The position numbers and the translations under genes are program-made. Shown here in pieces: positions 38,906 through 61,473 of a DNA stretch of 64,000 nt; within the stretch, counting starts at the first letter, position 1; the number at the start of each line of letters is the position of its first letter. The notes beneath the pieces were generated by a model. It was not told the DNA's origin. It did not search any database and saw nothing but the letters and a program-made list of their open reading frames with translations. The stretch comes from Rubeoparvulum massiliense. Lineage in GTDB: Bacteria; Bacillota; Bacilli; Rubeoparvulales; Rubeoparvulaceae. The stretch lies in NCBI RefSeq assembly GCF_001049895.1, contig NZ_CVPE01000005.1, positions 62,001 to 126,000 of the forward strand. Direction: 5' to 3'.

Positions 38906-38914
38906 ACGAGCTGA

Positions 38915-39020
38915 TCTTCATTGTTCACTCCTTTCCAGCGGGAGGCACATGCGTTTCCACACATACCCTATCGGTCTATGAACCATAGACGGATCCACAG
39001 GTTCAATAGACTCGGAGTTC
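38915..39020 (-). ncRNA. Moco/Tuco-type riboswitch, compact form
   Basis: Leader of modABC. The 3' part reads GCCUCCCGCUGGAAAGGAGUG, very close to the conserved end of the E. coli moaA Moco riboswitch. It is preceded by a stem capped by a GGAA (GNRA-type) loop, and earlier by a perfect GUCUAUG/CAUAGAC hairpin. ACUCC near 39018 pairs with GGAGU near 38928 as the closing stem. The aptamer is about 95 nt, shorter than the E. coli form, and seems to lack the extended P3 arm, which has been proposed to mark tungsten-cofactor (Tuco) sensing. An imperfect palindrome at 39027-39048 lies just upstream. Confidence 0.8.
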
Positions 39021-39134
39021 ATATGGGCCATTCATCCGGATGATTGGCATGTTTCTTCACCCATATTTTACTACACTCAAGGAGAGGAGAGTTAAAGCAA
39101 GTATGACAATTACTTGAATTCACACAGCAAATTC

Positions 39135-45462: not shown

Positions 45463-48400
45463 CTACACTCTCTCAATTCGGAAGGCGCCACCATTCCGGC
45501 TTGGAATTCCTGTTGACATCTCGCTAAAGCCCATGATACCTGCTTCAACGGTTGGGTCGAGCAGACTAATACGAGCAAGGTTAACCCCTTTGCCACGCCG
45601 CTCATCGCCAGGTATGGTCTCATTTCCTACTTCATAGGATTTTACTCCATATTGCCAGTGTCCATAACCGAAGGCGATGGCTACAGTACCTTTTGCTACA
45701 CCTTGACGTGCTAGTAAGATCCCCTCTTCTTCACCACCAGTAGCGGAAATCAATTTCACCCGATCGCCATTTTTTAAGCCTAACTGTTCAGCATCTTCAA
45801 TATTGACCTCTACATAGTTGGTATCATGAATCTGTGTAAGGATAGAGCTATTAGCTAACATGGTGACACTACGGAAGTTGGCCTTGTAGGAGACTCCTTT
45901 AAATGGCCATTCGCTCTCTGGATACTTATCCGTTAATAATGTGCCATCGGCAAAGGTTTCAGGTTCATAGACAAGTACACCTGGGAAGTATTCGCCAGTG
46001 AAGCTATTCCGTGCAGTAGCAAGTGATTCTACATAGAGATTTAACACTTTCTTATAGCCATATTTATGGAACTCACCATCAAATCCATCCTCCCGACTTT
46101 CGAAACGACCACCACGACTCATCACATAGAGTGCTTTTCGCCATTCATCTGGCTTCAAAATCTTCTTCCACTCTTCTAGTTCTTCTCCTAGACCCATGAG
46201 CTGAATCTCTTCATCAGTAATGTCAGGCGCCACTTTACCAATGGAGTCGTCGAAGGCCATGTTGGTGATAATCCGTAAGAAATACTCAGCTGGATTATTA
46301 ACGGGAACATCATTCCCATCCTTATCTTTCAGTGCCTTGTCACCATAGCCTGGTACGCCGATCGCCTTTGCCACATCAATAATATAGTTCTCTAAACAAG
46401 CATAACGACCGTCTGGCAATTGTTCTGTTAGCGCTTTCACTACAGGCCAGCGAACGGTGGTGCCTTTACCAGAGAAGTTCCCTTCAATATTGGGAGTACC
46501 CCAACTTTCATAGGGAGTAGTATCTGGAATGATATAGTCAGCTAAGGACGTTGTTTCGCCCATAAAAGCATCGGAAGCGATAAATAACGGAACCTTATTT
46601 ACATCCTTCAGTCCTTCAACTACTTCACTTTTCGCACCTGCTGGCGTTGTCATCACGGGATTACTCATCCAAGTGAAGAGAATTTTAGTCTGATAAGGGT
46701 ACCCATTAATGGCAGCGAAGACCGCTTGGTTATCGGATGCACCCCCAACTGGATGCCAAGGGAATTTACTAGGATAAGGATTTTCTCCTTGCGCCACCTT
46801 CTGTTTATATTCCGTGGTATCTTCATATCTAGCACCAGTACGTCCTACAAGCATCCCTGCTGGTTTTGGTGCTCCTTCAATATTTTTCAGATCATAACGC
46901 GGTCCTGGAGTAGCAGTACTAAAGTTGTTCCGCCGAGTAATATTACCGCCCTTCATATTCGTCGAACCGACAAGGGCACAGAGTGCGTAGTGAGCAGCGG
47001 TCGCTTGCAAGCCCGTTGAGGATGCCGTACCGCCTAAACCATCCACAGCTACCTTGGTTCCATGAGAGGTGAACTCCTTAGCGATTTCCACAATGGTAGC
47101 AACCGGAATCCCACACTCTTTGCTGTAGAACTCCATATCATGGGAATCTGCACTCTCCTTCAGTAAGAGCAGGCTAGATTTAACATGAATCGTTGTTCCA
47201 TCAGCAGCAGTCAATGCGCCGGCATAGAAGATATCTGCATCGGTTGTTTCACTGTAAAGCTTGGGTTGCCGTGTGGCTTTATCAATCACCACGTAGAAAT
47301 CTTCCTTACCGTCGTTTTCTGGTACCGGAAGTCCGAGATCCTCTGCCCGTAAAAGTTTCCGATAATTGGGATGCTGCTCATCCATAATGACGAGGTACGA
47401 AGCATTACAGAAGCTGTTATAGCCTTTCGCTTGAGCTGCCTCGAGATTAGGAGCGCTTAAATAGGCTTCGTTATAACGGCGGTTGGCAAGAATCCATTGG
47501 ATTAATGCAAGTGCAAATGCACCGTCCGTTGTTGGCTTAATGGGGACCCACTTCGTCCGGTTACCATTGGGGCCAATTCCTCCACCCATCATGACTGGGT
47601 CTACCACCGTATATTTCAAATGACCTGTTGTGGTACCCACGGCTGCCTGCCGAGCAATGGTCTGCATCGGCTTCCCTGCTTTACCAGGGTAAGCACCTAG
47701 ATAGAGGATATATTCAGCATTTGTCATATCTGGCTTAAAGACGTTTCCACCAGCGAATATCCCAGCACCTGGGACTTTAGAGCCCCCTCAGGAAAAGCCA
47801 TGTGAATGGAAGTTCTTTGTACCAAAAAATCCCGCAAATTTGTTCGCAATCACTGTACGACCATCCCCACGTCCGCCAATAAAGGAGAGCTGGTTGCTCT
47901 TCGGACCTAACTCAGGCTGAGCTGGATCAAGAGGAGTCTTCACATCATGAACTTGACGGAAGCCTTCGATGGTTTGACCCTCACCAAGATCTGCAAAGAG
48001 CTTACCACCTTCAACCGTTTCCTTAACAGCTTCTTCCCAAGTAATGGGGACCCATTTTCCTTCTCCCCGTTTTCCTGCCCGCTTTAAGGGAACCAGAATA
48101 CGATTGGGGTCATAGTGCGCCTCTAGGGTTGCATTCCCCCGTTGACATAGCGTGGCACGATAACGATATCCATAATCTTGATAGCTACTGAATGCACGGT
48201 ATGCGTCTAATAATGGTGCTTCAAAATCCAAGGTTGGTTGAGCATTGTTCGGATTATACGGATTCCCATATACTCGTAGCATCTGACCGGTTCGCGTATC
48301 AATTTTGACCCGGTTACCACAAGAGCTATAGCATCCGAGACAAGCACTATTCCGCATGACAATGTTGGAATTCACTTTCACTTCTCCGCTCTGTGGATCT

Positions 48401-48549
48401 ACCCGAGCCTCTAACTCTTGGGTACGGGCATGGAGAGGAGTAAATTCCTTCGGCTCTTCTGCATGACTCAGTTTGTCCAGACCCAAATCCACTACAGCTA
48501 CTGTACCAACTGCCATGGAAAGTTTCAGAAATTGGCGCCGATTCAGCAT
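45463..48549 (-). CDS. TtrA-like molybdoenzyme catalytic subunit, predicted selenoprotein (UGA at 47788-47790)
   Basis: Two open stretches (48549-47791 and 47787-45463) are in one frame, divided only by a TGA; together they encode 1028 residues, the size of tetrathionate reductase TtrA. The N-terminus has a Tat signal (RRQFLKL) and the [4Fe-4S] ligands Cys70, Cys73, Cys77, Cys135. The TGA is codon 254, in GTKNFHSHGFS-TGA-GGSK, which aligns with GSKNFGAHGAYCGLA of Salmonella TtrA, so it replaces the cysteine that ligates molybdenum. A SECIS-like hairpin follows. Selenocysteine at this ligand is known in formate dehydrogenases. Close relatives include tetrathionate, selenate and polysulfide reductases, so the substrate is open. 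Confidence 0.85.
47755..47790 (-). promoter_or_regulatory. bSECIS-like element after the UGA of the molybdoenzyme gene
   Basis: Starting 12 nt after the UGA, GUCCCA and UGGGAU (47759-47775) pair around the loop GGUGC. The loop starts 18 nt after the UGA and begins with G, fitting published bacterial SECIS rules (G among the first two loop bases; 16-37 nt distance). Confidence 0.65.
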
Positions 48550-57998: not shown

Positions 57999-58025
57999 CT
58001 GGGATAAAAACATCCCAGCTTTTTT
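57997..58025 (+). terminator. Terminator after the PilZ protein gene
   Basis: AGCTGGGAT (57997-58005) pairs with ATCCCAGCT (58012-58020), followed by TTTTTT. It lies between convergent genes and overlaps the sensor kinase stop. Confidence 0.9.
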
Positions 58026-59406
58026 ATACGGGAAAGTCCAATCTGACCACCGTTCCGACCCCAACCTCACTCTTGATGGAAATCTCTCCATGATGAGCTT
58101 TCATCAAAGCATGAACAACGGATAAGCCGATACCAGCCCCCCCTGTTTTTCGATTCCTTGATTTTTCACCGCGATAGAATCGTTCAAATAGGTGGGGAAG
58201 ATCTTCTGCTGCTATTCCCTGTCCCGTATCTTCAATTTGAAAACGTATCATTTCCCCAGTTTGCTGAGCAGATAATTTCACCTTTCCTCCAGCTCCTGTA
58301 TATTTCAGCGCGTTGTCCATGATATTAATCATGATTTGCATAAACCGATCGCGATCCACAGTGACCTGCAATGTAGGAGCTGGTGGCTTCAGAATGAGTT
58401 GCACTTCTCGCTCATAGAATGCAGGGAAAAAGTGCTCATAGATATTTTGAAGAAGCGCTTGTACAGAAAAGGATTCCTTTTGGAGTTGAATTTGTGGATT
58501 CTCTGCTGCTAATAATGTATCCATCTCATTCACCAGTCCAACCAACCGCATCAGCTCATGATGACTCTGCTTTAACCGTTCTGGCGTAGGCTCCCATACT
58601 CCATCTTGAAAGGCTTCCAATTGGCTACGAAGGGTAGCGAGTGGTGTTCGGAGCTCATGGGCAAGATCATCGGTAAACTGCTTTCGTAAGCTCTCCTGAT
58701 ATTGTAAGGACTCAGCTAATTCATTGATAGCCAATGCTAATTGTTTCATCTCTTCCGATTGGTTCTCGGTGGGGATCCGAACAGTGAGATCATGCTGTTG
58801 TAGTGAGCGAGCTGCCTCTTCCATCTCTCGTAGCCCCATGGTAATTCGCCGTGTAAAAAGGATACTAAAAAGAATACCCAGTAGGATCATTACTACAGCA
58901 GCCAGCAAGATGTTGCGATTAAACCGTTCAAAAAAATAGAAGTCGCCTTGCGTATATCCTTTAAAAAAATAGACCTCTAACTGTGCAATGGTGTTGTCAT
59001 TCCACTGAACCGGATATTCTTCTACCAATAAATCAAAAGACTCCAGCTCAGCGGAGGATTCCATCATCATGCCATTGATCATCATGTGCTCCATCATCTT
59101 GATTAGCGGAGTTGAATCAATGATCAATCTCCCTTGCTGATCATATATTTTGTAATAAAGGTAGTCGGTCATGGCTTGCAAATGGATGAGACTACCTGCC
59201 AGTTCACCATTCATTCTTCCATTTGCTTCATATTCTTCAACCAACCGCTGACGAAGCTGATCCACTTGTTCCTCTCGTTTCTGCTGCAAGTAATCATCAA
59301 AGCTATCGGTAAAACCCCATTGTATTGCTACACTCACAATGATAATGCTGCTTAAGGAGATGAGGAGGAAGAGGATGAGAAGTCGGGATTGGAGGCTTTT
59401 AAACAT
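58024..59406 (-). CDS. Sensor histidine kinase (two TM, HAMP)
   Basis: A 460-residue membrane kinase: TM1 (about 7-29), an extracellular domain of about 130 residues, TM2 (about 162-182), HAMP, HisKA with the phospho-accepting His in HELRTPLATLRSQ, and HATPase with N-box NIMDNALKYTG and G-boxes DTGQGIA and GGAGIGLSVV. The ATG at 59406 overlaps the response regulator stop by 8 nt, so translation is coupled. It shares the operon with a predicted selenocysteine lipoprotein, suggesting the sensed signal is extracellular and related to that protein. Confidence 0.92.
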   Translation of the reverse strand: MFKSLQSRLLILFLLISLSSIIIVSVAIQWGFTDSFDDYLQQKREEQVDQLRQRLVEEYEANGRMNGELAGSLIHLQAMTDYLYYKIYDQQGRLIIDSTPLIKMMEHMMINGMMMESSAELESFDLLVEEYPVQWNDNTIAQLEVYFFKGYTQGDFYFFERFNRNILLAAVVMILLGILFSILFTRRITMGLREMEEAARSLQQHDLTVRIPTENQSEEMKQLALAINELAESLQYQESLRKQFTDDLAHELRTPLATLRSQLEAFQDGVWEPTPERLKQSHHELMRLVGLVNEMDTLLAAENPQIQLQKESFSVQALLQNIYEHFFPAFYEREVQLILKPPAPTLQVTVDRDRFMQIMINIMDNALKYTGAGGKVKLSAQQTGEMIRFQIEDTGQGIAAEDLPHLFERFYRGEKSRNRKTGGAGIGLSVVHALMKAHHGEISIKSEVGVGTVVRLDFPV

Positions 59407-60097
59407 CGGGCTGCCCACCAAATTTATATCCCATTCCAAACACCGTAAGGATATAGACTGGCTCCTTAGGATCCGTTTCGATCTTCTTCCGTAGATTTTT
59501 TACATGGACATCAATACTCCGCTCATAACTCTCATAAAGATCTCCTTGTACCTTCTCCAATAGCTCCGCACGACGATAAACTCGCCCTGGATATTGAGCC
59601 ATTCCACTTAATAGCTTAAATTCAATGGGAGTTAAAGAGACGAGCTCGCCCTTCACCTTCACTTCTTGCTTAGGTAGGTCGATAAACAGTTCGCCACCTT
59701 GATAGGAGTAACATTCTTCCTCCTTGAGCTTCTTAATTCTTCGAAGAATGGCCTGGGCTCGAACCACGACTTCTCTAGGACTGAATGGTTTTACCACATA
59801 ATCATCAGCACCGATGACAAGTCCATGGATTCGATCAGCTTCTGCAGTTTTTGCAGTGAGCATGATGATAGGTACATCGGACTCCTGACGAATCCGTTCA
59901 CATATCTCCTCACCTTTCATATCGGGGAGCATTAGATCAAGAATTATTAAATCAGGATTCCACTTCTGGAATTGCTCCATTGCTTCCCTTCCTGTCTCAG
60001 CAGTTTCTACTTTATACCCTGCTTGCTCAAAATAGGATCGCAAGACATCACCAATCATGGGCTCATCGTCAACGATTAAGATTTGGACCGGTGTCAT
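59399..60097 (-). CDS. OmpR/PhoB-type response regulator
   Basis: A 232-residue response regulator: receiver with acidic pair DDE, phospho-acceptor Asp in LIILDLMLPDMKG and Lys in VVKPFSPRE, and a winged-helix C-terminal domain (LTPIEFKLLSGM, RSIDVHVKNLRKKIE, TVFGMGYKFGG). The ATG at 60097 follows GAAGGAAGGG and lies one base after the stop of the Sec-lipoprotein gene; longer in-frame starts overlap that gene. The inverted repeat at 60600-60623 is a possible self-regulated site. Confidence 0.93.
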   Translation of the reverse strand: MTPVQILIVDDEPMIGDVLRSYFEQAGYKVETAETGREAMEQFQKWNPDLIILDLMLPDMKGEEICERIRQESDVPIIMLTAKTAEADRIHGLVIGADDYVVKPFSPREVVVRAQAILRRIKKLKEEECYSYQGGELFIDLPKQEVKVKGELVSLTPIEFKLLSGMAQYPGRVYRRAELLEKVQGDLYESYERSIDVHVKNLRKKIETDPKEPVYILTVFGMGYKFGGQPDV

Positions 60098-60098
60098 G

Positions 60099-60539
60099 TT
60101 ATTCCCTTCCTTCGTCGGGTATGGATGTCGGTGTAGGATCTCCATACTGTTCATACTTCTCCACGATATTTAGATGTATCTCACGTAAAGACTTGCCATC
60201 TTCCCATTCTGCTACCGCCTCCCGGGCGATATTCACGCAGATGTCTCAAGTCGAGCCATGGGAGTCCCAGCTGATCACTTCTTGGTTAGGACCCAACTCG
60301 CCAATGAAACAATCTAGATTACTCTTATGTCCTATGGTACCACAGCCACAATAGCAGGGAACACTAGCAAGTACCTGTGGATATTGAGCTGCCTTCCCAT
60401 ATGCATCCTCCACCTTCCACCCTTTGGATGTTGCATAGTTGGGGAGAAGAAGTTGCGTATCTCCTTGATTACTACAGGCTGTTCCAAGTATGCTAATGAA
60501 CATTAACAGCAATAGTAAGCTACCTATTCTTCGTTTCAT
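60099..60539 (-). CDS. PCYCGC-motif lipoprotein, predicted selenoprotein (UGA at 60246-60248)
   Basis: A 146-residue lipoprotein if the in-frame TGA is read as selenocysteine. It has a signal peptide and lipobox LGTAC (Cys22), the PCYCGC block (Cys62, Cys64, Cys66), then HKSNLDCF (Cys77) and WDSHGST-TGA-DICVNIA. In PCYCGC-family proteins the last motif is a CxxC, so the TGA (codon 98) replaces its first cysteine, giving UxxC with Cys101. After the TGA the frame continues with family-like sequence and stops one base before the response regulator start. A SECIS-like hairpin follows the TGA. ATG at 60539 behind GAAGG. Function of the family is unknown; metal or thiol-redox chemistry is plausible. 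Confidence 0.82.
60208..60245 (-). promoter_or_regulatory. bSECIS-like element of the PCYCGC gene
   Basis: Directly after the UGA, UCUGC/GCAGA (60237-60241 with 60208-60212) and AUCGCC/GGCGGU form a two-part stem with internal loop and a CGGGA apical loop. The loop starts 21 nt after the UGA and has G at its second position, fitting bacterial SECIS rules. Confidence 0.65.
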
Positions 60540-60599
60540 TTCATCCTTCAACTCCATCTGAACCTTAGTCGCTCTTATTTCGAAGCTTAGCGGCACTTT

Positions 60600-60694: not shown

Positions 60695-60725
60695 AGAAAA
60701 GAGCACCAAGAAGGTGCTCTTTTCT
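60695..60725 (-). terminator. Terminator of the coiled-coil gene
   Basis: AGAAAAGAGCACC pairs perfectly with GGTGCTCTTTTCT (5-nt loop) and overlaps the stop codon. Confidence 0.8.
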
Positions 60726-61374
60726 AACGATTTTTTATTTTATAGATTTCCCGATCATGTTCTGCAATTTTTTGATCATAATAAGCAAGATCTTGCTTGG
60801 AAACCATCTGGATGCGAATTTCTGTCACATCATTTCTCACATCAGTCACTTCGCCTCGTAGTGAATGGAGATCCATGCTCAAGCCCTCTAATTTTGCATC
60901 CGTTTCTTCCTGTCGATCTAGGATCGCTCTAGCAAGTTGAAACAACTCACTCTGACCTGATTCTAAAGCGTCCAGTCTGGTATTAACACCTACTAGCTCT
61001 GATTGAACACCGACTAGACCTGTCTGTACTTCGGTGAGTTCTGTCCTTACTTCGGCCAGATCCGTCTTTACTTCGCTCAGTTCTGTCTTGACTCCGGTTA
61101 AGTCCGTCTTTACCTCGCCAAGGTCCGTCTTGACTTCGGCTAGATCCGCCTTTACTTCGCTCAGTTCTGTCTTGACTCCGGCTAAGTCTGTCTTTACCTC
61201 GCCAAGGTCCGTCTTCACTTCGGCTAGATCCGCCTTTACTTCGCTCAGTTCTGTCTTGACTCCCGCTAAGTCCATCTTCACTTCTTTGAACTCTGTTTTC
61301 ATTTCCTGGATATCATGTTTAATCGTAGATAGCTCATTGATGATAAAATCCAGTTTCTCTTCCACCGGTATCAT
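60724..61374 (-). CDS. Coiled-coil protein with internal heptad repeats
   Basis: A ~216-residue, soluble, probably continuous coiled coil. Residues ~25-125 are made of seven-residue units of the type xLxEVKT(D/E); a 28-residue block (84 bp) occurs twice in tandem. The C-terminal part (LARAILDRQEETDAKLEGLSMDLHSLRGEV...) is less regular. Function unknown. The ATG at 61374 or the GTG at 61365 (AAAGGA eight bases upstream) may be the start. Repeat-number variation between strains would be expected from the DNA repeats. Confidence 0.7.
   Translation of the reverse strand: MIPVEEKLDFIINELSTIKHDIQEMKTEFKEVKMDLAGVKTELSEVKADLAEVKTDLGEVKTDLAGVKTELSEVKADLAEVKTDLGEVKTDLTGVKTELSEVKTDLAEVRTELTEVQTGLVGVQSELVGVNTRLDALESGQSELFQLARAILDRQEETDAKLEGLSMDLHSLRGEVTDVRNDVTEIRIQMVSKQDLAYYDQKIAEHDREIYKIKNR
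61100..61267. repeat. Two tandem 84-bp repeats within the coiled-coil gene
   Basis: Copies at 61100-61183 and 61184-61267 differ at only a few positions, each built of four 21-bp heptad-coding units; diverged units continue on both sides. Confidence 0.85.
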
Positions 61375-61473
61375 CCTTTCGGCTATTTTCGCAGCACCTC
61401 TCAATGTTAGTTATTTACATTTTGATATAAAAGATGTGGGAGGTCAAGCGATAATTGAAGAAGGATGAAGCAC

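Follow-up and report, generated by a model that had tools for sequence, protein, structure and literature searches.

The 64,000-nucleotide stretch of Rubeoparvulum massiliense DNA analysed here (the window) contains, as our analysis confirms, a gene for a PCYCGC-family lipoprotein with an in-frame UGA that is probably read as selenocysteine (Sec). The product is probably a membrane-anchored, extracytoplasmic selenol/thiol oxidoreductase of CcmH-like type, with its Sec98 supplied by way of SelB and tRNA-Sec.

The in-frame UGA and its hairpin

The PF13798 (PCYCGC) selenolipoprotein gene, assigned by its domain match and alignment with 68 homologues, occupies positions 60539 to 60099 on the minus strand. 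It runs from an ATG at 60539-60537 to a TAA at 60101-60099 and comprises 146 codons, including Sec98, plus the stop. Just 5′ of the ATG, inspection of the sequence revealed a putative Shine-Dalgarno sequence, GAAGGAT with an AAGG core (60543-60549, minus strand). With the UGA read through, the PF13798 match reached 104.1 bits, against a Pfam gathering cut-off of 25, and spanned residues 30 to 141, which correspond to profile positions 41 to 153 and thus extend to the profile end; a six-frame search of the genome found one TGA inside this match. On the same strand, 60724-61404 encodes a protein built from heptad-like repeats that are almost identical to each other (SEVKTDLAEVKTDLGEVKTDL) and probably form a coiled coil.

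The 146-residue read-through product consists of a signal peptide followed by Cys22, a PCYCGC motif at residues 61 to 66, the sequence U98-D-I-C101 and a PTPT tail. Cys22 (60474-60476, minus strand), invariant among 13 UGA members, is the putative lipidation site in an atypical lipobox, ILGTAC. The alignment of 69 members showed C62, C64, C66, H71, C77, U/C98 and C101 to be invariant, and so is G115, which like C101 falls within the codons after the UGA. The first three Cys residues belong to the CYCGC motif (60342-60356, minus strand), which in the profile comparison aligns with the active-site region of CcmH. Cys101 (60237-60239, minus strand) is the putative resolving Cys of the UxxC motif.

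The TGA lies at 60246-60248 (minus strand) and occupies the first position of UxxC, which relatives have as a C-terminal CxxC. It therefore sits where the family has the first Cys of CxxC, as the earlier note had proposed from the window alone; the PF13798 alignment bears this out, with UGA at that same Cys column in 45 loci. The note was also right that the frame continues for 48 family-like sense codons past the UGA before its TAA, ending one base before the start of a response regulator gene whose ribosome-binding site lies within those codons.

The UGA is followed by a bacterial SECIS (bSECIS) apical hairpin, TATCGCC-CGGGA-GGCGGTA (60213-60231, minus strand), identified by folding, by conservation in homologues and by comparison with the published model. 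It has a 7-bp stem and a 5-nt loop with G at loop position 2, the loop lies 21 nt past the UGA, and the computed energy is -15.1 kcal/mol. All these values lie within the bSECIS model as given in a 2026 review (PMC13188914), i.e., a loop of 3 to 9 nt, a stem of 4 to 16 bp, G in one of the first two loop positions, a spacing of 16 to 37 nt and a minimum free energy of at most -7.5. Hairpins with a stem of 5 to 7 bp and a 5-nt loop located 21 to 22 nt past the UGA are present in 45 of 45 UGA loci, with the loop sequences CGTGA (32 loci), CGGGA (11) and TGGAT (2); two of them (G070 and G008) fall outside the model only in the -7.5 kcal/mol limit, when a 45-nt piece is folded.

In our first set, all 20 UGA homologues have at this position a 5-nt loop closed by a stem of 5 bp or more. 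Synonymous codon resampling gave a mean of 3.0 of 20 such hairpins and a maximum of 8 in 1000 rounds, and 2 of 12 Cys homologues had one. The closing pair of the stem varies (GC in 7 rows, AU in 6 and CG in 6 of a 19-row alignment), and the covariation score was 0.566 versus 0.198 for shuffled alignments (0 of 500 reached it), while versions slid along the alignment scored at most 0.114. A few Cys rows, e.g., L197, have kept a hairpin-like sequence, possibly a remnant. The element had been described as a two-part SECIS-like hairpin, which our analysis half confirmed: the apical part proved to be conserved, while an outer stem was seen in the fold of the window's own sequence. We propose that UGA98 would be decoded as Sec by SelB and tRNA-Sec, directed by this hairpin 21 nt downstream.

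Sec machinery and Sec/Cys exchanges

The sel genes that the Sec reading presupposes are all present in the same genome. It encodes a tRNA-Sec (62.6 bits; called by ARAGORN as tRNA-SeC with anticodon TCA), SelA (579 bits), SelB (371 bits) and SelD (390 bits), each of them above its curated cut-off. The SelD gene, located next to selA outside the window (C6:224865-225791, L229), itself has one in-frame TGA, so SelD is probably also a selenoprotein. TGA ends 12 of the 36 window genes as an ordinary stop, so the genome has not reassigned this codon.

Another selenoprotein candidate is found inside the window, a TtrA-like (tetrathionate reductase) molybdopterin oxidoreductase gene at 45463-48549 on the minus strand. 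It scored 785 bits against NF011567, below the cut-off. Its UGA (47790-47788) corresponds to residue 254 in the sequence FSUGGSK, probably the Mo-ligand position. No TtrA entry was found in the selenoprotein table of the 2026 review, as far as that table was accessible (PMC13188914). Upstream of molybdate-transporter-like genes lies a riboswitch for the molybdenum cofactor (38912-39029, minus strand; 63.5 bits to Rfam RF01055), in line with a nearby molybdoenzyme.

We searched 400 genomes of the class and found PF13798 in 162. Among the weak-scoring members fetched, 20 genes in 19 genomes, window included, have a TGA exactly at the Sec98 column. G222 was excluded from this count, as its TGA precedes the domain and its CxxC is intact. 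A named collection of 80 PF13798 loci contributed 25 with UGA; four of these repeat genomes of the first set, so the 45 loci represent about 41 distinct genes. They span Bacillota, Acidobacteriota and Chloroflexota, and in the named collection they come from Neobacillus, Bacillus, Mesobacillus, Pseudoneobacillus, Paludifilum, Kroppenstedtia, Salinibacillus, Vicinamibacterales, other Acidobacteria and one Chloroflexi metagenome-assembled genome (MAG). PCYCGC relatives occur in 17 plasmid records, none closer than 60% identity, and none was found in a search of viral contigs.

The presence of SelB follows that of the UGA. SelB scored above its cut-off in 19 of 19 UGA genomes versus 12 of 50 Cys genomes (Fisher p = 3e-9, kinship ignored), and in 4 of 11 genomes without PCYCGC. 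The corresponding proportions in the named set were 18 of 20 and 16 of 30, both UGA misses being MAGs.

On a tree of 106 rows, five Sec/Cys changes are required, of which starred branches force three, although the deep forks are unsure because the columns are few; several exchanges have thus taken place inside one family. In one case, a Kyrpidia MAG (G056) with Cys and without SelB stands beside a member of the same family (G071) with UGA and SelB. After the Cys codon, the MAG gene (L057/L146) retains a partly decayed hairpin, and a recent Sec-to-Cys switch is likely there. Bacillus marasmi harbours three UGA-type paralogues, each in another context: heavy-metal genes, DsbD_2 with a two-component system, and a Ccm operon (L128, L131 and L132). 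This species would suit a test of function.

A stop inside a known domain usually means a nonsense mutation, a sequencing error or a pseudogene. Such an explanation is refuted here by the recurrence, across dozens of genomes, of the same UGA column together with a hairpin that covaries, and by the association with SelB; we give it next to no weight. It is just as improbable that the UGA marks the true end of a functional product of 97 residues. Some termination at a Sec-UGA is expected under selenium scarcity, but the 48 codons after it match the family to profile position 153, including C101, G115 and the PTPT tail.

CcmH likeness, neighbourhoods and proposed function

An AlphaFold2 model had a pLDDT of 90. 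The top and sole notable Foldseek match in the PDB was 2hl7, the CcmH periplasmic domain. As this match is weak on its own (probability 0.63, E 0.77), profiles were compared with each other. HHalign aligned the PCYCGC family, without its signal peptide, to an alignment of CcmH sequences from clostridia and Bacillus with 93% probability over 60 columns. By comparison, 100 column-shuffled controls gave at most 3.5% and a reversed control 0.2%; clostridial CcmH alone gave 88%. The Pfam CcmH model (PF03918) matched 1 of the 69 members, at an E value of 0.035, below the cut-off. It was not listed for the window protein in the Pfam search, and searches of the PDB by sequence and of viral structures returned no credible relative and no match, respectively. 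No paper that mentions PCYCGC together with CcmH turned up in our literature search. Profile evidence thus suggests that PCYCGC may be a distant CcmH-like module.

The gene neighbourhoods of relatives also point to redox chemistry, as indications rather than tests, since the loci are related and the fetched flanks unequal in length. In six related UGA loci, an EF-P gene lies on one side and cytochrome c, CcmE, CcmF and CcmH genes follow the UGA gene on the other, CcmH being within the fetched flank of four. A DsbD_2 gene adjoins the UGA gene in G008, and L131 and L135 share the order UGA gene-DsbD_2-regulator-kinase. A ResA-like protein is encoded at G204a, a cytochrome c gene directly follows the UGA gene in G012, and cytochrome oxidase genes precede it in G240 and G119. 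No CcmH was found in the window genome, and the window locus is without a DsbD_2 or cytochrome gene; the proposed function is thus carried over from relatives.

The folded part of the protein would be a distant CcmH-like thiol-disulfide module, with CYCGC and UxxC most likely forming its redox relay. Electrons would probably be taken across the membrane from DsbD_2/CcdA-type carriers and ResA-type thioredoxins. They would probably serve to reduce disulfides of proteins outside the cytoplasm, for example apocytochromes, oxidase subunits or proteins under copper stress. The idea of an extracellular Sec-dependent redox lipoprotein, put forward in the earlier note, has thereby gained ground: UxxC, SECIS and Sec machinery favour its Sec part, and the CcmH likeness and the DsbD_2, ResA-like and Ccm neighbours in relatives its redox part.

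The copper-exporter context of some relatives could mean metal handling instead, i.e., binding or trafficking of copper or another soft metal via the six invariant Cys/Sec residues and His71 rather than thiol-disulfide exchange. A heavy-metal P-type ATPase is encoded within the fetched flanks of 11 UGA loci and one Cys locus (of CopA type in L121), a CsoR/RicR-like repressor near L131, and ZnuA-like zinc-binding lipoproteins next to G250 and G356; the invariance of C62, C64, C66, H71, C77, U/C98 and C101 would also suit metal ligands. However, a Sec-dependent UxxC, the similarity to CcmH and the DsbD_2, ResA and Ccm neighbours better suit redox, and the ATPase loci are phylogenetically clustered, with flanks of unequal length. 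We therefore regard metal handling as unlikely, though a contender. Less plausible still is that the protein partners the adjacent two-component system in sensing, with regulator synthesis possibly dependent on UGA read-through. The OmpR-type regulator gene (59399-60097, minus strand; assigned by domain match) has its ATG at 60097, one base past the selenoprotein TAA, and its Shine-Dalgarno sequence GGAAGGGAA sits in the last codons of the selenoprotein gene. The HAMP/HisKA sensor kinase gene (58024-59406, minus strand), presumed to start at an internal ATG, encodes a protein whose presumed extracytoplasmic sensor region carries a Met-rich stretch, IKMMEHMMINGMMMES. A regulator and a kinase also follow the UGA gene in G170, L131 and L135, and the regulators of the last two are 49% identical to that of the window. 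However, only four UGA loci, of about 41 in all, share this arrangement, and most have other neighbours; kinase similarity is low (about 28%), the tight gene-regulator spacing is not kept in G170, and no Met-rich stretch was found in the L131 kinase. The partnership with the kinase suggested in the earlier note is thus weak, its conserved linkage being rare.

Returning to the preferred oxidoreductase reading, a bolder version would make PCYCGC proteins CcmH-related surface selenol/thiol reductases of many Bacillota, devoted to redox upkeep of cytochrome c, oxidase and copper sites, with regulator synthesis in the window species coupled to Sec read-through. We consider this whole a long shot; if true, the coupling would represent a selenium-responsive switch.

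Relation to known Sec and Cys proteins

The earlier note was unaware of any account of Sec in PCYCGC proteins, but the record says otherwise. PF13798 is listed, in the 2026 review, as “CYCXC family protein (hypothetical protein OS_HP4)” with UxxC and one Sec (PMC13188914). OS_HP4 with its UxxC stems from a 2007 Olavius symbiont study (PMC9312934), and NCBIfam NF041379 is a “CYCXC family (seleno)protein” model (OS_HP4_CYCXC equivalog). Together these entries make Sec in PF13798 already known. Bacilli go unmentioned in the main text of both reviews. The window protein scored 71.7 bits against NF041379, under its cut-off of 90 bits, which none of 399 phylum genomes passed. This curated NCBI model is too strict for the Bacillota genes, and many of them may thus be annotated as truncated. 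What is new here is the Bacillota subgroup under that cut-off and the CcmH-like functional lead. The OS_HP4 selenoprotein family is now found in culturable Bacillota (Neobacillus, Bacillus, Mesobacillus, Kroppenstedtia and Paludifilum) where function is testable, and a Pfam family of unknown function gains a testable fold and pathway.

The Bacillota members share with OS_HP4/CYCXC the Pfam domain, a single Sec and UxxC, and all 69 aligned members match NF041379; they differ in being lipoprotein-like and in scoring below its cut-off. The Cys-type PCYCGC lipoproteins of Bacillus, Paenibacillus and Priestia have the same architecture and invariant Cys and His residues, but Cys replaces Sec, the hairpin is not conserved and SelB is often absent. 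CcmH (PF03918) is a thiol-disulfide protein that acts in cytochrome c maturation by system I; in the profile alignment, the region it appears to share with PCYCGC covers CYCGC and two helices ending in “GKS..EI....YG”, and one clostridial CcmH reads LMCYCGC. In contrast, PCYCGC has an insertion between the shared parts and an extra U/CxxC, and it is held by a putative N-terminal lipid anchor, where CcmH has a C-terminal membrane helix.
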